Source: Syntrophaceae bacterium CG2_30_58_14 (GTDB taxonomy: Bacteria; Desulfobacterota; Syntrophia; Syntrophales; UBA5619). From it: 34,140 bases of DNA. The translations under genes were made by a program, and so were the position numbers. Where the stretch lies: positions 1-34,140 of the forward strand of contig MNZQ01000035.1 in the NCBI GenBank assembly GCA_001873745.1, given 5' to 3'. Of this stretch, positions 18,805 to 28,046 are shown piece by piece. Position 1 is the stretch's first letter. Each line of letters opens with the position of its first letter. The notes below the pieces were generated by a model, which was given only the letters and a program-made list of their open reading frames with translations, had not been told where the DNA came from and did not search any database.

Positions 18805-18943
18805 ACCGGCCTCTTTTGGCTTCCATTTTCCCCGGATCGTGCGATGACCCCGTAAAATGACTTTTTCCCCGCCCGGCACCGGGAGGGAAAAAGCGGGGAT
18901 GGGCGAAAGAGGGAGATTCCGTAGAAATCCAGGACGGCGATCC

Positions 18944-21900
18944 ATGGGTCGTTTCAATCTCTTCATCAGCAACCGGATGGAACGCCTCGCGGCGCAATTA
19001 GCGGATACCCTCCGGAGGCCCCTCTCCGATCCCCTGTGGGGCGATATCATTATCGTGCAGAACCGGGGCATGGAGCGCTGGATCTCCATGCAACTCGCCC
19101 TTCGGCACGGAATCTGCGCGAACGTCCGCTTTCCCTTCCCCCGAGTTTTTCTCCATGAAATCGCGACCAGCCTGACAGGAATCTCTCCCGCGGGCGACTA
19201 CGAACCCGAGATCCTGACCTGGCGGATCATGGGAATCCTGCCGGGTTGTCTAAATGCTCCTCTTTACAGCGGCTTGAAGCGCTATCTCACTGATGACCCT
19301 GCAGACCTGAAAAGAGTTCAACTGGCGGCCGGCATTGCGCGGGTATTCGATCGCTATCTGATCTTTCGTCCCGAAATGGTGGACGCCTGGGAGAAGGGGG
19401 AAAGCGGAACGGGGGAAGCCGGATGGCAGGCCGATCTCTGGCGGAGGATCCGCGCGACCTGTACTACGGAACATCTGAACGGGCTTCGCAAGCAGATACG
19501 CCGCCGAATCGCGACGGGGTCGTCCGCTGCCCTGCTTCCCGAGCGGATCTCCATTTTCGGCATCTCGGTTTTGCCGCCGTTCTACCTCGATTTCTTTCAT
19601 CTCCTTTCGCAATCGACGGAGGTGAACGGTTTTTTCATGAACCCCTGCCGGGAGTTCTGGACCGACATCCGCTCGGAGCGGGAGATGGGGCGGATGGTGC
19701 AGCGCGTGCGGGAAAAGACGGGTTGGAAAACCGCCACCGAGGAGGATCTCTTCCTTGAAAAGGGGAACGGCCTGCTCGCATCGCTCGGCAAACAAGGGCG
19801 GGATTTCTTCTCCCGTCTTGCCGCTGTTTCGTCGGATATTCATGAGGAGTTCCCGGATCCCGGGGAGGGGAGCCTGCTGACCATGGTCCAGGCCGATATG
19901 CTGAATCTGCGCGACCGGGGCGGAGGCGGAATCCCCAAAGCCGGCGTCGCCCGCGATGACCGTTCCGTACAGATCCATTCCTGCCACGGTCCACTCCGGG
20001 AAATCGAGATCCTCCATGATCAACTGTTAGAGATGTTTTCGCAGAACGCGGACATTTTGCCGAACGATATCATCGTTATGGCGCCGGATATCGAAATATA
20101 CGCCCCGCTGGTGGAGGCGGTTTTCGGTGGGGACGCCTTGCGGCAAGGTGTCCCCAAACGCCGGCGGGAGATCCCCTTCAGCATCGCCGACCGCGGCATC
20201 CGTCACGGAAGCGCCATGGTCCGGGCCGTTTTTGCGATCCTGGAGCTTGTAACCGGCCGTTTCGGCGTCGCCGGCAGCCTCTCCATCCTCGATTCGGCGC
20301 CGGTTCGGAGGCGATTCGGCCTGGAGGATGGGGATGTCGATAAGATCCGGCGCTGGATCGCCGAATCGGGGATCCGCTGGGGGATCGATCCGGAGGACCG
20401 GGCGCGCTCCGGCCTTCCCGCATTCCGGGAAAACACCTGGCGGTCGGGTCTGGACCGCCTGCTGCTTGGTTATGCGATGGCGGGCGATGGGAGACGGATC
20501 TTCCGGGGGGTAGTTCCCTATGACGATATCGAGGGAAAGGACGCGGAGATCCTCGGCCGATTCATCACCTATGCGGAGGCCCTTTTTTCGCTCCGCGCCT
20601 CACTTGCAAAACCGCGTTCCCTCGGCGACTGGGCCGCCGCTTTTCTCGGTCTCTTGGAGGCGTTTTTCGCCCCCGCAGCGGCGGAGGACGAGGAAGAAGA
20701 ACTCCGCTCTCTGCGCCGCTCTCTGGAAGAGATCGGAAGAATTGAAGAAAAGGCGGCTTTTCACGATGCGGTCGCGTTTTCGGTGATGAAATCCCTTCTG
20801 ACAAATGCGCTCGATAACACCGGCCATCCCTACGGGTACATGACCGGAGGCGTGACCTTCTGCGCGATGGTTCCGATGCGGAGCATCCCCGCCCGGGTTG
20901 TCTGCCTCCTCGGAATGAACAACGCCGATTATCCCCGCCGATCCGAACCGGTCGATTTCGATCTTCTAAGCGAAAACCCGAGGTCCGGCGATCCGTCGCG
21001 AAGGGATGATGACCGCTACCTGTTTCTCGAGGCGCTGCTCTCCGCTCGCGATACCCTCTATATCAGTTATGTAGGGCAGAGCAGCGAAGACAACAGCGTG
21101 ATTCCCCCCTCCGTTCTCGTTTCGGAGCTGATCGACCATCTGGGACAGGGTTATCGGTGCGAGGGCGAAACGGTTGAGGAACATCTGCTGACCCGCCACC
21201 ACCTCCATCCCTTTCACCCCTCCTATTTTTCGGGCGATGCGAAGCTCTTCAGCTATTCCGCGGAGAATTGCGCGGCGGCCGGCAGCCTCGTCGATCCTTC
21301 GCGGGCGGAGCGGAAATTTGCGACGGAGCTTCTCCCCGAGCCGGAGACGGGGTGGCGGGAGATTTCGACCGCAGACCTGATAACATTTTTCAGAAACCCC
21401 TCGAAATATCTGATGAAGAGGAGGATCGGCCTTTCCCTCGATGAAGGACCGGAAATTCTTCGGGAGAAGGAGTTGTTCCGGATCGGGGGGATGGAGCGGT
21501 ATCGTCTGGGAGAGTCCCTGCTCGAACATGCCCTCGGCGGCGGAGATCCGCGGGAACCCTTCCAGGCGATGATGGCCTCCGGTGAGCTTCCCCATGGAGC
21601 GGCCGGGCTCTGTGAGTACGATGCGCTTTGCCGGAAGGTGACCGACTTCGCCGCGTCCGCGGCTCCGCTGCTGAAAGGTCGGCGAACCTCTCCGTTGGAC
21701 GTGGATCTCACTCTCGCCGGCTTTCACATTTCCGGGCGGATCGATGGCCTCTGCGAGGCGGGCCTGATCCGGCGCCGGTATGCAACCATCCGCGGCAAGG
21801 ACCATTTGCGGCTCTGGATCGACCTTCTGCTATGGTCTCTCGCCGAACCCGCCGCCGATCACGGGTCGGCCGTACTTCTCGGGCGGGAGGAGGCATGGGG

Positions 21901-22231
21901 CTATACGGTCCCGGAAAACCCGCGGGAGGCGCTCGGCAACCTCCTTCGGATCTATGCAGCGGGGCTGCGGGGTCCTGCCCCTTTCTTCCCGGAGACCTCT
22001 CTGGCCTATGCAGAGACCCTCCACGGGGGAAAGAAAACAGCCGAAGCGGCGCTCAAGAGGGCGGAGTCGAGCTGGAACGGCAATGAACAGCTCCAGCTCC
22101 CGGGCGAGGGGGATGATCCCTATTTTCGCCTCTGTTTCGGGGCCGATCCGCCGCTGGATCCGGATTTCCGGGAGATGGCGGTAGCGGTGTTCGAACCGCT
22201 CCTCAGCCGCCGGGAGAAGCGGGGAAGATGA
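18944..22231 (+). CDS. recC: Exodeoxyribonuclease V gamma subunit (ORF opens at 18857; MGRFNLFISNRMERLAAQLAD start preferred)
   Basis: RecC-like N-terminus (ISNRMERLAAQLADTL), IIVMAPDIEIYAPLVEAVFG...IPFSIADRG, NADYPRR; ATGA overlap with recB. Confidence 0.93.
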   Translation: MGRFNLFISNRMERLAAQLADTLRRPLSDPLWGDIIIVQNRGMERWISMQLALRHGICANVRFPFPRVFLHEIATSLTGISPAGDYEPEILTWRIMGILPGCLNAPLYSGLKRYLTDDPADLKRVQLAAGIARVFDRYLIFRPEMVDAWEKGESGTGEAGWQADLWRRIRATCTTEHLNGLRKQIRRRIATGSSAALLPERISIFGISVLPPFYLDFFHLLSQSTEVNGFFMNPCREFWTDIRSEREMGRMVQRVREKTGWKTATEEDLFLEKGNGLLASLGKQGRDFFSRLAAVSSDIHEEFPDPGEGSLLTMVQADMLNLRDRGGGGIPKAGVARDDRSVQIHSCHGPLREIEILHDQLLEMFSQNADILPNDIIVMAPDIEIYAPLVEAVFGGDALRQGVPKRRREIPFSIADRGIRHGSAMVRAVFAILELVTGRFGVAGSLSILDSAPVRRRFGLEDGDVDKIRRWIAESGIRWGIDPEDRARSGLPAFRENTWRSGLDRLLLGYAMAGDGRRIFRGVVPYDDIEGKDAEILGRFITYAEALFSLRASLAKPRSLGDWAAAFLGLLEAFFAPAAAEDEEEELRSLRRSLEEIGRIEEKAAFHDAVAFSVMKSLLTNALDNTGHPYGYMTGGVTFCAMVPMRSIPARVVCLLGMNNADYPRRSEPVDFDLLSENPRSGDPSRRDDDRYLFLEALLSARDTLYISYVGQSSEDNSVIPPSVLVSELIDHLGQGYRCEGETVEEHLLTRHHLHPFHPSYFSGDAKLFSYSAENCAAAGSLVDPSRAERKFATELLPEPETGWREISTADLITFFRNPSKYLMKRRIGLSLDEGPEILREKELFRIGGMERYRLGESLLEHALGGGDPREPFQAMMASGELPHGAAGLCEYDALCRKVTDFAASAAPLLKGRRTSPLDVDLTLAGFHISGRIDGLCEAGLIRRRYATIRGKDHLRLWIDLLLWSLAEPAADHGSAVLLGREEAWGYTVPENPREALGNLLRIYAAGLRGPAPFFPETSLAYAETLHGGKKTAEAALKRAESSWNGNEQLQLPGEGDDPYFRLCFGADPPLDPDFREMAVAVFEPLLSRREKRGR
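20129..20155. repeat. GGGGACA palindrome copy A: GGGGACGCCTTG-CGG-CAAGGTGTCCCC
   Basis: 12-bp arms, one G.T wobble; inside recC, translated GDALRQGVP. Confidence 0.85.
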
Positions 22232-25200
22232 ACGGAACCGATCCTCATATCAGACCCCATTGGGGACACCTTGCGGCAAGGTGTCCCCAAGCCTTCGATC
22301 TGACGCATACGCCTCTTTCCGGAACGAATCTGATCGAGGCCGGCGCGGGGACCGGGAAGACCTATGCCATTGCCGGCCTCTACGTGCGCCTCCTCATCGA
22401 ATCCGCGCTCCCGGTGCGGGAGATCCTGGTCGTGACCTATACCGTCGCCGCTACGGATGAACTGAAGGACCGGATCCGGCGCCGGGTCCGCGACGCGCTC
22501 TGCGCATTCCAGACCGGCTGGGGTACGGACGCATTCCTGATCGCGCTGCTTAAGAAATTTCCGGAACCGGGAGAGCGGGTTCATGCCGCGGAACGGTTGA
22601 CCCGTGCGCTGCGGGATTTCGACGAGGCGGCGATCCATACGATTCACGGCTTCTGCCAGCGGGTTCTTCGGGAAAACGCCTTCGAAAGCGGGGAGCTTTT
22701 CGACACGGAACTGATCACCGACGATCAGCAGATTCGGCTTGAAATTGTTGAGGATTTCTGGAGGAACCACTTCTATGAAACGGCGCCCGAGGTCGCGGCC
22801 TATGCGCTCGAGCAGAAATACAGTCCCGAATCCCTGCTGCGGTTCATCGGGAGCCGCGCTTTTCTGCCCGAGTGGCGGATCGTTCCCGAAATGGAACCGC
22901 CCGACGACGAAGAACGGGGACGCCTGGTCGAGCGACTGCGGCGGGAGCTTTCCGCGCTGCGGGCGGACTGGCCTACTTGCAGGGAGGAGGTCTCCGCGCG
23001 GTTGGGTGATCCGGCGCTGAAGGCCAATCTGTACGGCAGCCGCGTGCCTTGGTTGATCGCGGAAATGGATCGATGCCTTGCCGGGGAGAACACCTCCCTT
23101 TTTCTCTTCGCCGGCTTTGAAAAATTCACCGCGGACAAAATTGCAGCCTCCCTCCGCAAGGGTGGAACTTCCCCGGAACATCCTGTATTTGAGCTCTGCC
23201 GCACGATTTGGGGACTCTCCTCGCAACTGAAGGTCGCCCTGGATCGCCATCTCCTGTTCCTGAAGCGGGAATTGATCCGCGCGATGACGGAGGAGCTTCC
23301 CCAAAAAAAACAGCAGCGGAATGTCCAGTATTTCGACGATCTGCTGCTCAGGCTTCGCAGGGCGCTGCTAAAACCGGGCGGGGAAGGTCTTGCCCAGGCG
23401 ATCCGCCGCCGATACCGGGCGGCGCTGATCGACGAATTTCAGGATACGGATCCGGTTCAATACGTGATCTTCTCGGCGATATTTCGCGAGGCGGGGAACA
23501 TCCTCTTTCTGATCGGCGACCCCAAGCAGGCCATTTACAGCTTCCGCGGCGCCGACATCTTCGCCTATCTGACGGCGGCCTCCCAGGTCGAAGCCGTTCA
23601 CACCCTCGATGCAAACTGGCGCTCCGACCCGGTTCTGATCCGGGCCGTCAATACGCTCTTTTCCCGCCGGGAAAATCCCTTCGTCTTTCCGGAGATAGCC
23701 TTCCGGCCGGCGCGGGCCGGAAATGAGACATTTACAGAAAAGCTAACGATTGAAGGATGTTCCGAACCACCTCTCCAGTGCTGGTTTATAGATGCGGATG
23801 GCGGTGATGAGGCCCAAAAACCACTCCCGAAGGGGATCGCCCGGCCGCGGGTTGCGCGCGCGGTCGCGGCGGAGATCGCGAGGCTGCTCCTCTTGGGAAG
23901 GCAGGGGCGCGCGATGATCGGGGAAAGAGCTCTTCGGGAAGGTGACATCGCGGTCCTCGTCCGGACGAACCGGGAGGCCCGCCTCTGCCGCGAAGGGCTT
24001 GCTGCATTGCGGATCCCGGCGGTGCTCCACAGCACGGGAGACCTCTTCGACTCCCCGGAGGCCATGGAGATGGAACGTCTGCTGCTGGCCGTGCTCTCCC
24101 CCGACCGGGCGGAGCTCCTTTTGGCGGCGCTGGCCACGGATATGGTCGGATGTAATCTTGCGGCATTGGATGCGCTGCGTCATGATGAACAGGCGTGGGA
24201 AACCTGGCGGGAGGGATTTCGGTCCTATCACAGGATCTGGGAGAAGGGCGGCTTTCTGAAGATGTTCCGTCTGTTTCTCGATCGGGAGCAGGTGCGGGGC
24301 CGGCTGCTGGCCTTCGCGGATGGGGAGCGTCGGCTGACCAACTGCATCCATCTTTCCGAGGCGCTGCACCGCGAGGCCGACGAAAGGAACCTGGGGATGG
24401 CCGCTCTGATCCAATGGCTGGCCGAAAAACGGGACCCGCGGAGGGCAAGCAAAGAGGAACACCAGCTTCGCTTGGAGAGCGACGCGGAGGCCGTTCGGAT
24501 CGTAACGATCCACAAGAGCAAGGGGCTGCAATATCCGGTGGTCTTCTGTCCGTTTCCGTGGGGAGGAACGGCGGAGAGGGACGAGCTGCTCTGCTATCAT
24601 GATCCCGTCGATCACGGGCAGATTTGCGATCTGGGATCGGAGGACTATCCCGACCACCGGCAGCGTGCCAGACGGGAGGCCCTTGCCGAAGAGGTGCGGC
24701 TGTTCTATGTGGCCCTGACGCGCGCCCGAAACCGCTGCACGTTCGTCTGGGGAAGGATCAACGGTGTCGGCGGCTCGGCGCCGGCCTATCTGCTGCACGG
24801 CGGGGATGATGCGGAGGATGCCGTTTTTGCAACGGAAAGTCGTTATCAAAAACTCTCCGGCCGTGAAATCCATGATGAACTGAAAAGGATCGCCGCAAAA
24901 GCGCGTGGTTCCATAGAACTTCTGGATATGCCGTCCGACGCGGGCGCGGTGCGTATGACGGGGACACCTTGCCGCAAGGTGTCCCCCTTTGGCGGGGACA
25001 CGATGCGGCATCATGTCCCCGTCCGGTGTCGGGAATTTCACGGCGCCGTCGATCACTCCTGGCGTGTCGCCAGCTTCTCCCATCTCATCTCCGGCGTCGG
25101 TTGGAACAGCGAGCTGCCCGACCGCGACAGCGACCGGGGTGGACGGGTACACGATGCGGCATCATGTCCCCGTATTGGAATGCTTTCCCCGGGTCCGGAA

Positions 25201-26055
25201 CACCGCGCCGACCCGGAGGAGATCGATCCGAGCTTCACATTTCCGCGGGGAAGCCGTTCCGGCACACTGCTCCATGAGATCCTCGAAAAGGTCGATTTCA
25301 TGAAAACGGACGAACCGCGCTCGGCGGAGATGATCGCGCTTAGGCTGCGTGAAAACGGCTTTGATCCGCAATGGCAGGGGCCGGTTCGGGAGATGGTCCG
25401 CCGCGTGGTCCGCCATCCACTCGTTTCCGCTAACATTTTCCCGATCCGGGAAGATCCGGTCCGCCATTCCGGGGGTGTAACGCCGCCGATTTCGGGCGAA
25501 CCGGAGGCGATCACCCTCTCCCGGATCGGCAGCGACCAGCGGCTCAACGAACTGGAGTTCTATTTCCCGTTGAAACGGCTCACCCGGGAAGGGCTGAGCC
25601 GTCTTTTCCGGGAAACGGGTATTTCAGCGGCGCCGGCGTCCAAGACTTTCGCGGAATCCCTTCACCGGCTCCAGTTCGATCCGGTCCGGGGATTCATGAA
25701 GGGTTACATCGATATGGTCTTTCGTTTCGCCGGCCGCTATTACCTGGTGGACTGGAAATCCAATTTTTTAGGCGATCACCGGGAGGATTACCGCCGCGAC
25801 CGGCTTGCGGCGGTCATGACGGAGCACCACTATGTTCTTCAGTATCACCTCTATCTGATGGCGCTCCACCGCTACCTGCTCCGGAGAGACCCGGGTTATG
25901 ATTATCGCTCCCATTTTGGCGGTGTTTTTTATCTTTTTCTCCGGGGGATGAATCCCGCCTGGGGCGCCGATTACGGGGTCTATTATGACCGTCCCGATCC
26001 GGAACGGGTCGAGTTCCTCTGCCAGGAGATGATCGGAACGGGGGAGGCGAAATGA
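22228..26055 (+). CDS. recB: Exodeoxyribonuclease V beta subunit (helicase-nuclease)
   Basis: LIEAGAGTGKTYAIAGLYVRLL, DEFQDTDPVQY, GDPKQAIYSFRGADIFAYL, nuclease motif GYIDMVFRFAGRYYLVDWKSN...QYHLYLMALHRYL. Confidence 0.96.
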   Translation: MNGTDPHIRPHWGHLAARCPQAFDLTHTPLSGTNLIEAGAGTGKTYAIAGLYVRLLIESALPVREILVVTYTVAATDELKDRIRRRVRDALCAFQTGWGTDAFLIALLKKFPEPGERVHAAERLTRALRDFDEAAIHTIHGFCQRVLRENAFESGELFDTELITDDQQIRLEIVEDFWRNHFYETAPEVAAYALEQKYSPESLLRFIGSRAFLPEWRIVPEMEPPDDEERGRLVERLRRELSALRADWPTCREEVSARLGDPALKANLYGSRVPWLIAEMDRCLAGENTSLFLFAGFEKFTADKIAASLRKGGTSPEHPVFELCRTIWGLSSQLKVALDRHLLFLKRELIRAMTEELPQKKQQRNVQYFDDLLLRLRRALLKPGGEGLAQAIRRRYRAALIDEFQDTDPVQYVIFSAIFREAGNILFLIGDPKQAIYSFRGADIFAYLTAASQVEAVHTLDANWRSDPVLIRAVNTLFSRRENPFVFPEIAFRPARAGNETFTEKLTIEGCSEPPLQCWFIDADGGDEAQKPLPKGIARPRVARAVAAEIARLLLLGRQGRAMIGERALREGDIAVLVRTNREARLCREGLAALRIPAVLHSTGDLFDSPEAMEMERLLLAVLSPDRAELLLAALATDMVGCNLAALDALRHDEQAWETWREGFRSYHRIWEKGGFLKMFRLFLDREQVRGRLLAFADGERRLTNCIHLSEALHREADERNLGMAALIQWLAEKRDPRRASKEEHQLRLESDAEAVRIVTIHKSKGLQYPVVFCPFPWGGTAERDELLCYHDPVDHGQICDLGSEDYPDHRQRARREALAEEVRLFYVALTRARNRCTFVWGRINGVGGSAPAYLLHGGDDAEDAVFATESRYQKLSGREIHDELKRIAAKARGSIELLDMPSDAGAVRMTGTPCRKVSPFGGDTMRHHVPVRCREFHGAVDHSWRVASFSHLISGVGWNSELPDRDSDRGGRVHDAASCPRIGMLSPGPEHRADPEEIDPSFTFPRGSRSGTLLHEILEKVDFMKTDEPRSAEMIALRLRENGFDPQWQGPVREMVRRVVRHPLVSANIFPIREDPVRHSGGVTPPISGEPEAITLSRIGSDQRLNELEFYFPLKRLTREGLSRLFRETGISAAPASKTFAESLHRLQFDPVRGFMKGYIDMVFRFAGRYYLVDWKSNFLGDHREDYRRDRLAAVMTEHHYVLQYHLYLMALHRYLLRRDPGYDYRSHFGGVFYLFLRGMNPAWGADYGVYYDRPDPERVEFLCQEMIGTGEAK
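22260..22290. repeat. GGGGACA palindrome copy B: TTGGGGACACCTTG-CGG-CAAGGTGTCCCCAA
   Basis: 14-bp perfect arms; inside the recB N-terminus, translated WGHLAARCPQ. Confidence 0.9.
24960..24986. repeat. GGGGACA palindrome copy C: GGGGACACCTTG-CCG-CAAGGTGTCCCC (inverted relative to B)
   Basis: Exact reverse complement of the 27-bp core of copy B; inside recB, translated TGTPCRKVSP. Confidence 0.9.
24994..25020. repeat. GGGGACA palindrome copy D: GGGGACACGATG-CGG-CATCATGTCCCC
   Basis: Near-perfect palindrome with the same termini and CGG loop, variant inner stem; inside recB, translated GDTMRHHVP. Confidence 0.85.
25145..25171. repeat. GGGGACA palindrome copy E: GGGTACACGATG-CGG-CATCATGTCCCC
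   Basis: 26/27 identical to copy D; inside recB, translated RVHDAASCP. Confidence 0.85.
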
Positions 26056-28028
26056 CGATGGCCGACGGTAAAGCGAAAAGCGCCCCTTACACCTCACGCC
26101 TCACGTTCCACACTGGTGAATCCCTGGAACCGATCGATCTTCACTTCGGCCGCTTCATCGAGAGGCTGGGCGGCGAAGCGTCGCCCTCGCTTTTCTTAGC
26201 TGCGGCTTTTGTCAGCCGAAGCGCCCGCGAGGGAAACATCTGCCTCGATCTCAACGATGTCGCCGGCGGGATGGCGCCGCCCGAAGCGTGCGTGTCCCTG
26301 CGGCAATGTCCGGATCTGGCCACGTGGCGAACGGATATCCTGAAATCCCCGGTCGTCGGAAAGCCCGGTGAAGAGCGACCGCTGATTCTCGACGAGGCCT
26401 CCCGTCTCTACCTCTGCCGTTACTGGGAATACGAGGCGGAGTTGTCCCGGTTTCTCATTCAAAAAGGCCGGTTGCAGGGGTCCCGGCCGGAATGGCTCCG
26501 GCAAAAGGGGATCGATTTGGAACGCCTCCGGGATGGCCTGAGGCGCCTCTTTCCACCCTCCGCCGGGGAAACAGGACGGGAAGGGGAGGGGAGGATGGAT
26601 TGGCAGAAGGCGGCGGCGCTGACGACCGTTCTGCAGAACCTCACGGTGATCAGCGGCGGTCCGGGAACGGGGAAGACAGTCACCGCGGCCAAGGCGATTA
26701 TCCTCATTGTCGAACAGTCGCGGCTTCTCGAACCGTCGCAGGGGAAAAGGCCGCGCATCGCACTGACCGCCCCGACCGGAAAGGCCGCCGCAAGGCTTCA
26801 GGAGGTGATCTCCCGGATCAAAGAGCGGTGGTGCAGCGATCCAGAGATCCGCGAGGCGATCCCGGACCGGGCGATGACCATCCACCGACTGTTGGGCGGC
26901 CTTCCCCATTCCTCCCGTTTTCGCTATCACCGCGGGAACCCGCTGCCGGTGGATGTCGTGGTGGTCGATGAGGCCTCCATGGTCGATCTGCCGCTCCTTG
27001 CAAAACTGATGCGCGCCCTCCCGGAACAGGCCCGGCTGATCCTCCTCGGGGATCGGAATCAGTTGGCCTCGGTGGAAGCAGGGGCGGTGCTCAGCGACAT
27101 TTGCGGCGATCCGCCGCTGAACCGTTTTTCGCCGGATTTTGCCGATCTCGTCGCCTCGCTGACGGGCGGGGACGCTGTGACGCCTCCGCTCACCCGGTCA
27201 ACGGCAAGCCCATCGCAGATCCGGGACTGCCTGATCGAACTGCAAACCAATTACCGCTTCCCGGAGGAGAGCGGAATCCATCGTCTGAGCCTTGCGGTAA
27301 ACCGCGGGGCAGGGGAGTCGGCCCTCTCCATTCTGAAGGAGAAGGGGGACGACTGCCGCTGGATGCGGATTCCTCCGGCCGGGGAGCTGTCGCATGACCT
27401 GAAAGATACCATTATAAAATACTTTAAGGAATACATGGATCATATTGATCATGCAGGTGAATATGGATTGCTCTTTGATCTGTTTGACCGTTTCCGGATT
27501 CTCTGCGCCCTCCGCCGGGGGCCCTACGGTGTGGCCGAGATCAATCGGCTTTGCGAGCAGATCCTTTTCGAGTCTGGGCTCATCCGGACCGCCGGTCCCT
27601 GGTATCCGGGACGACCGGTAATGATCACAAAAAATGATTACGGAATAGGGCTTTTTAACGGCGATGTCGGACTCATCCTGCCTGATCCGGAACGCAACGG
27701 GGAGCCGGGCGCCTTCTTCCGTGATCCGGGCGGCGGCTTGCGTCGTTTTGCCCCGGTCCGACTTCCCGCCCATGAAACCGTCTATGCGCTGACGATCCAC
27801 AAAAGCCAGGGGTCGGAATTTGATAACATCCTTGTGATTCTTCCCGACCGCGACGCCCCTGTGCTGACGCGCGAACTCATCTATACGGCCATCACCCGCG
27901 CCAGAAAATCCGTCACCGTATGGGGCGAGGAGGCGTTGTTCATCCGGGCCGTTTCCCGCCGCTCTATACGCTCATCCGGTCTGCGCGACGCGCTTCAGTG
28001 TGAGTGCCAACCTGGGGACAGATTTTAA
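26052..28028 (+). CDS. recD: Exodeoxyribonuclease V alpha subunit
   Basis: ISGGPGTGKTVTAAKAI, VVVVDEASMVDLPLLAKLM, LLGDRNQLASVEAG, ALTIHKSQGSEFDNILVILP, ELIYTAITRARKSVTVWG. Confidence 0.95.
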   Translation: MTMADGKAKSAPYTSRLTFHTGESLEPIDLHFGRFIERLGGEASPSLFLAAAFVSRSAREGNICLDLNDVAGGMAPPEACVSLRQCPDLATWRTDILKSPVVGKPGEERPLILDEASRLYLCRYWEYEAELSRFLIQKGRLQGSRPEWLRQKGIDLERLRDGLRRLFPPSAGETGREGEGRMDWQKAAALTTVLQNLTVISGGPGTGKTVTAAKAIILIVEQSRLLEPSQGKRPRIALTAPTGKAAARLQEVISRIKERWCSDPEIREAIPDRAMTIHRLLGGLPHSSRFRYHRGNPLPVDVVVVDEASMVDLPLLAKLMRALPEQARLILLGDRNQLASVEAGAVLSDICGDPPLNRFSPDFADLVASLTGGDAVTPPLTRSTASPSQIRDCLIELQTNYRFPEESGIHRLSLAVNRGAGESALSILKEKGDDCRWMRIPPAGELSHDLKDTIIKYFKEYMDHIDHAGEYGLLFDLFDRFRILCALRRGPYGVAEINRLCEQILFESGLIRTAGPWYPGRPVMITKNDYGIGLFNGDVGLILPDPERNGEPGAFFRDPGGGLRRFAPVRLPAHETVYALTIHKSQGSEFDNILVILPDRDAPVLTRELIYTAITRARKSVTVWGEEALFIRAVSRRSIRSSGLRDALQCECQPGDRF

Positions 28029-28046
28029 ATCTGTCCCCAGGTTGGC
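28006..28046. repeat. GGGGACA palindrome copy F: GCCAACCTGGGGACAGATTT-T-AAATCTGTCCCCAGGTTGGC
   Basis: 41-nt palindrome with 20-bp perfect arms; the recD stop TAA (28026-28028) lies at its centre. Confidence 0.92.

Follow-up and report, generated by a model that had tools for sequence, protein, structure and literature searches.

The window, that is the whole stretch of 34,140 nucleotides that was analysed, lies on contig C161 of a genome of 3.04 Mb (204 contigs, 97% complete) and carries the genes recC, recB and recD together with six short palindromes (Table 1). The frame of recC can be extended to position 18857 via an upstream ATG. All six palindromes listed by the sequence-only reading were found at the coordinates it gave, with one correction: the copy at 20129 starts with GGGGACG (one mismatch); the copy at 25145 starts with GGGTACA, as had been described. 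That no others occur in the window was confirmed by a scan tolerating one mismatch per arm, which returned zero further copies. Five palindromes are fully contained in the open frames of recC and recB and the sixth includes the TAA of recD, in agreement with the same reading, which had also distinguished at least three inner-stem types; these correspond to types A, B and C.

Table 1. Genes and palindromes of the recC-recB-recD segment, with their positions in the window.
Feature	Position	Strand	Remarks
recC	18944..22231	+	Exonuc_V_gamma and RecC_C domains
recB	22228..26055	+	UvrD helicase domains; nuclease domain downstream
recD	26052..28028	+	stop codon within the last palindrome (28014..28038)
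Type B (GGGGACACCTTGCSGCAAGGTGTCCCC), GGGGACG variant, in recC	20129..20155	+	frame 0; predicted peptide GDALRQGVP
Type B, near RecB N-terminus	22262..22288	+	frame 1; predicted peptide GHLAARCP
Type B, RecB helicase-nuclease linker	24960..24986	+	frame 2
Type C (GGGGACACGATGCGGCATCATGTCCCC), in recB	24994..25020	+	frame 0; predicted peptide GDTMRHHVP
Type C, GGGTACA variant, RecB linker	25145..25171	+	frame 1; predicted peptide VHDAASCP
Type A (GGGGACAGATTTTAAATCTGTCCCC), across recD stop	28014..28038	+	flanks GCCAACCT/AGGTTGGC complementary

The insert at 20129 sits in a loop that corresponds to a gap in the alignment of RecC to the E. coli protein (1w36_C). In recB, the type C copy at 24994 begins 7 nt after the type B copy at 24960. 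The last palindrome and its complementary flanks make up a stem of about 20 bp. This palindrome supplies the stop codon of recD; in the sister species G136 its central base differs and the frame reads through.

The genome was searched with the pattern GGGGACA-N0-30-TGTCCCC (exact arms), using the reversed pattern as control. The pattern gave 91 matches and the control none, and about 97 copies of the three types were counted. Type A (25 bp, GGGGACAGATTTNAAATCTGTCCCC) is able to carry stop codons, and types B and C (27 bp each) are open in every frame. The GGGGACA/TGTCCCC ends are constant across genomes and the interiors are variable. Hence the repeat family is genome-wide, and its apparent restriction to recCBD is an effect of the window. 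The concentration in these genes that had been pointed out is real in the sense that recCBD is the densest 8-kb stretch, with six copies, a density that none of 3000 random placements of 97 sites attained; the family is not confined to these genes, with copies in about 30 genes of the genome. The second-densest 8-kb cluster lies on contig C76 (five copies), and clustering remained significant when the window was excluded. Overall, 13 pairs of sites lie within 1 kb of each other, against 3.0 expected; copies are mostly single, and close pairs exist (24960/24994; C24:8325/8374). In REP families with RAYTs, copies may be paired in opposite orientation (BIME/REPIN).

By a home-made gene caller, which classes 86% of the sequence as coding, 21 of the 39 type B copies, 18/29 of type C and 8/29 of type A are intragenic, so that 39 of the 68 B and C copies lie within called genes. 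Random placement would put about 86% of copies within genes; fewer were seen, which indicates that genes are still partly purged of them. In two other lineages the B and C copies are mostly intergenic. The flanks contain no GTAG/CGTC-like tag and hold at most 0.6 bit per position, with just a weak signal of A-Y ahead of the palindrome and R-T behind it. No Rfam family matched the palindromes, and the matches to the element sequence in the open literature were unrelated.

The other named assemblies with the same repeat are mostly Syntrophales/Syntrophaceae. One assembly titled Ca. Poribacteria (JACRIR; L022, L050, L070, L075 and others), with a 5.5-Mb genome, holds 321 copies; in the loci that were sampled most of them are intergenic, and the extended arms CTTATTC/GAATAAG and CCCTTAATTC/GAATTAAGGG recur. 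Two assemblies titled Elusimicrobia (L049, L053) have one exact B copy each, the result either of transfer or of a mis-binned contig. Exact B or C palindromes were also present in ten IMG/VR viral stretches (L332-L341), which makes carriage by phages possible. Palindromes of 42-49 bp with (A/G)GGGACA ends and other interiors were observed, all of them intergenic (L144:6851-10136, L178:5181-12722, L150:16043, L172:12066); they are possibly extragenic relatives of the short types.

Besides recCBD, the host genes identified through Pfam encode GyrB (two insertions), the NAD-dependent DNA ligase LigA, MutL, DnaE, PheT, a penicillin-binding protein (ftsI), an FAD-binding protein like NadB, alanine racemase, an MFS transporter, NADH dehydrogenase subunits, LptC, UDP-glucose dehydrogenase and others; many of them belong to central metabolism or the cell envelope. 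By our count, 8 of 31 hosts are replication, repair or recombination genes (p between 1e-4 and 1e-2, assuming a background of 5-10%), which is suggestive of a functional bias towards repair genes. Within the host proteins, domains are avoided. Of 36 intragenic sites, 5 fall inside Pfam envelopes, against 20.7 expected (z -6): the LigA insertion lies between HHH and BRCT, that of MutL between two domains, and the RecB linker insertions between helicase and nuclease. Of 60 B and C copies deep inside genes, 41 are read in frame 0 (p=4.5e-8, an optimistic value because some of the 60 are orthologous sites). The peptides predicted for frame 0 are GDTLRQGVP and GDTMRHHVP; either of the non-zero frames gives a peptide with cysteine.

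The same positions were compared in related organisms. The genomes are metagenome assemblies, and the sequence was examined as stretches totalling about 1.1 Mb. Apart from the genome of the window, recBCD was found in one searched member of the genus (G136) and three members of the wider family; in the genus (G128-G137) they are patchy, a clear RecB being present in 2 of 11 genomes, that of the window and G136. The insert near the RecB N-terminus (22262) represents a net gain of 30 bp relative to the empty site of G136 and is absent in 4/4 relatives. The inserts of the RecB linker (24960, 24994 and 25145) are absent in all three relatives that cover them (G122, G119 and G118). The peptide segments might instead have been conserved in RecBCD homologs lacking the palindromes, which would speak against insertion; this was not the case, because the RecB segments are simply missing from the relatives. 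The recC copy (20129) is decayed in G136 and absent in G119. The palindrome at the end of recD is common to G136, where the flanks (TGGTGG/CCACCA) differ yet pair.

Flank searches yielded orthologs at many other sites, including empty ones in gyrB, pheT, dnaE, ftsI and others. Where intragenic orthologs differed in length, 77 of the 79 differences were divisible by three (overlapping loci of a single genome enter this tally repeatedly); both exceptions come from one site, where the gene start was probably miscalled and the true start lies further downstream. The net gain over empty sites ranged from 12 to 30 bp (often 12, 15, 18 or 21) for an element of 27 bp, and gains below 27 bp indicate that target codons are often replaced. 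The same loop may hold different palindromes according to the species: at C76:6727 a type C copy is present here, a type A copy in G135 and a type C copy with 16-nt arms in G131. In the loop of a UPF0261 gene (L287/L280; C203), this genome has a C palindrome, and the in-frame segment of G136 is 87 bp longer and consists of another inverted repeat (CCTTCGACAGGCTCAGG type) beside a decayed palindrome, so that a second repeat family fills the loop. No recent transposition was seen between near-identical genomes.

The GyrB orthologs of the family were retrieved by protein, blind to the presence of the repeat. At one codon position the palindrome occurs in seven relatives and in the genome of the window, the remaining orthologs being empty. 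All eight copies are intact; in that of G131 a change in one arm is matched in the other, and that of G130 differs at the central base. At gyrB site 1, G136 and G129 are empty and the more distant G122 is filled, which either repeated gain or gene transfer might explain. Across ten filled ortholog pairs, third-position differences amounted to 3/90 inside the palindromes versus 78/678 in the flanks, a contrast that is partly due to ascertainment, as copies were chosen for being intact in the window's genome. Given this ascertainment and the decay of the recC copy in G136, we regard maintenance at the DNA level as likely for gyrB and as generally unproven. As a general process, continuous correction between the arms of the core was discarded, since 20 of 20 changed pairs in the B copies of the genome were altered in one arm; the G131 gyrB copy holds the sole paired change.

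At 11 of the 97 sites (about 11%) the flanks are complementary over 4 to 12 nt, against a mean of 0.7 sites and a maximum of 6 in shuffled controls. Because these arms vary from site to site, they do not belong to the element itself. At C76:6395 (L151:6395), the genome equals the sequence of G135 (L278) plus 27 bp, and this extra sequence is exactly reproduced if the nascent strand ending in CATCGCACTAAC and the palindrome folds back, copies GTTAGTGCGATG from itself and rejoins the template at CGATG. At this one site, a local reverse-complement copy with two switch points accounts for the whole change. Stems of this kind are a known product of template switching (PMC8794818). An origin of the paired flanks from targets that were already palindromic was also considered, and none was found in the empty orthologs inspected.

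Taken as a whole, we consider it probable that the palindromes represent a 25-27 bp non-autonomous mobile element, similar to REPs and to Rickettsia palindromic elements (RPEs), which has multiplied in the genus. Insertions would occur widely, frequently at the cost of a few target bases, and selection would purge the copies that break frames or domains, leaving survivors in tolerant loops; frame 0, with its cysteine-free peptide, would survive best. Once inserted, the palindrome may act as a fold-back primer, so that replication would copy the adjacent flank as its inverted complement and produce a longer stem, as demonstrated at the one locus above and presumed for the others. The density in recCBD would be due to the length and abundance of linkers of these genes, perhaps together with a bias towards DNA repair. 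Several points speak against this explanation: the net gains vary between 12 and 30 bp, unlike those of a clean transposition, near-identical genomes showed no recent transposition, the changed pairs in B copies are one-armed, the recC copy of G136 has decayed, and the gene calls are home-made and the genomes metagenome assemblies.

How such an element is moved could be explained in several ways. A classical REP family mobilized by a RAYT (TnpA-REP) tyrosine transposase of the same genomes appears rather unlikely. Genes with the Y1 transposase domain (PF01797) do exist, three in this genome and several in relatives, and constant ends with variable interiors are expected if an enzyme reads the ends. 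However, the RAYT connection that had been raised for these repeats found no support in the surroundings of the candidate genes, as none of 31 Y1 loci of the genus and family has an A, B or C palindrome within 1.5 kb. In addition, copy number does not follow the number of Y1 genes (Spearman 0.24, p 0.29), no Y1 gene was detected in G137 (85% completeness), which carries 87 copies, and the flanks lack the GTAG/CGTC-like tag.

Spread by replication template switching, in which the growing strand would use a palindrome elsewhere as template, fold back and then return, all without a transposase, is in our view unlikely. This process is consistent with the locus-specific inverted copies of flanks, with the exact fold-back event at C76:6395, with the loss of target bases at several sites and with the stems that template switching is known to form (PMC8794818). 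Nevertheless, the empty sites showed no excess of microhomology to the ends of the element (28 cases, mean percentile 0.45), and the conserved ends, combined with variable interiors, argue for a specific reader of those ends. It is quite improbable that the palindromes form a population living for the most part within essential genes, that an end-reading factor repeatedly places them in the same permissive loops of sister species, replacing a few codons, that fold-back synthesis keeps and lengthens their stems, and that DNA-repair genes are preferred because they are parts of the mechanism. Finally, that the palindromes are functional modules, either regulating recBCD and other repair genes or serving as binding sites for a protein, is very improbable, since most hosts are unrelated genes, close relatives lack the copies, three different reading frames are used and no Rfam family matches, in spite of the 8/31 hosts in replication, repair or recombination, the REPs reported in the same gene class elsewhere (PMC3733652) and the strong DNA-level conservation at gyrB.

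The mobile element that we favour has several known counterparts. Intragenic GTAG/CGTC REPs were described in 2013 (BMC Genomics; PMC3733652) as short palindromes within ORFs of several species, proposed to lie in flexible linkers, with hosts including recBCD, UvrABC, DNA ligase, DnaE and tRNA synthetases; the recB insertions of two Xanthomonas species roughly coincide in position. Insertion into recBCD, where a concentration had been regarded as unusual, was already published for REPs. Both groups reside in ORFs and have many replication and repair hosts, but the Syntrophales palindromes lack the tag, differ in sequence and belong to a clade absent from the text of that paper; more than half of their B and C copies are intragenic, and empty sites, frame bias and fold-back arms were measured here. 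RPEs (Ogata 2000, 2002) are found in frame in unrelated protein genes and are apparently tolerated (PMC10969869). In-frame insertion into unrelated ORFs is common to both, and the present elements, of 25-27 bp and with Syntrophales-type hosts, are set apart by description from the RPEs, of about 150 bp in that review (PMC10969869). In REP/RAYT systems, high-copy palindromes of 20-40 bp accompany RAYT genes that are always flanked by REPs (PMC2817692). Our palindromes are likewise short and high in copy number, but the Y1 genes have no flanking A, B or C copies, and the mostly extragenic location used to define REPs with RAYTs does not apply here, with 39/68 B and C copies intragenic in the genome. 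Similarities also exist with quasipalindrome template-switch mutation, where local reverse-complement copies create perfect stems (PMC8794818), and with the mitochondria of Nematomorpha, whose coding sequences carry and rewrite long palindromes (PMC6649704); unlike the Syntrophales palindromes, neither case has a dispersed repeat family as seed. The family is new in being tagless, unusually gene-dwelling and from an uncultured clade, and it is ordinary as regards recBCD in particular.

Gene-dwelling palindromes came previously from Rickettsia and from scattered genomes with REPs. Here the orthologous sites of a single genus, in gyrB, ligA, mutL, dnaE and recBCD, include many that are filled, empty or re-filled, and this is what makes the system of interest. 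It becomes testable by what route such small palindromes move and whether replication and repair genes contain more of them than chance would give, and the palindromes themselves form a natural record of where essential proteins tolerate insertions.
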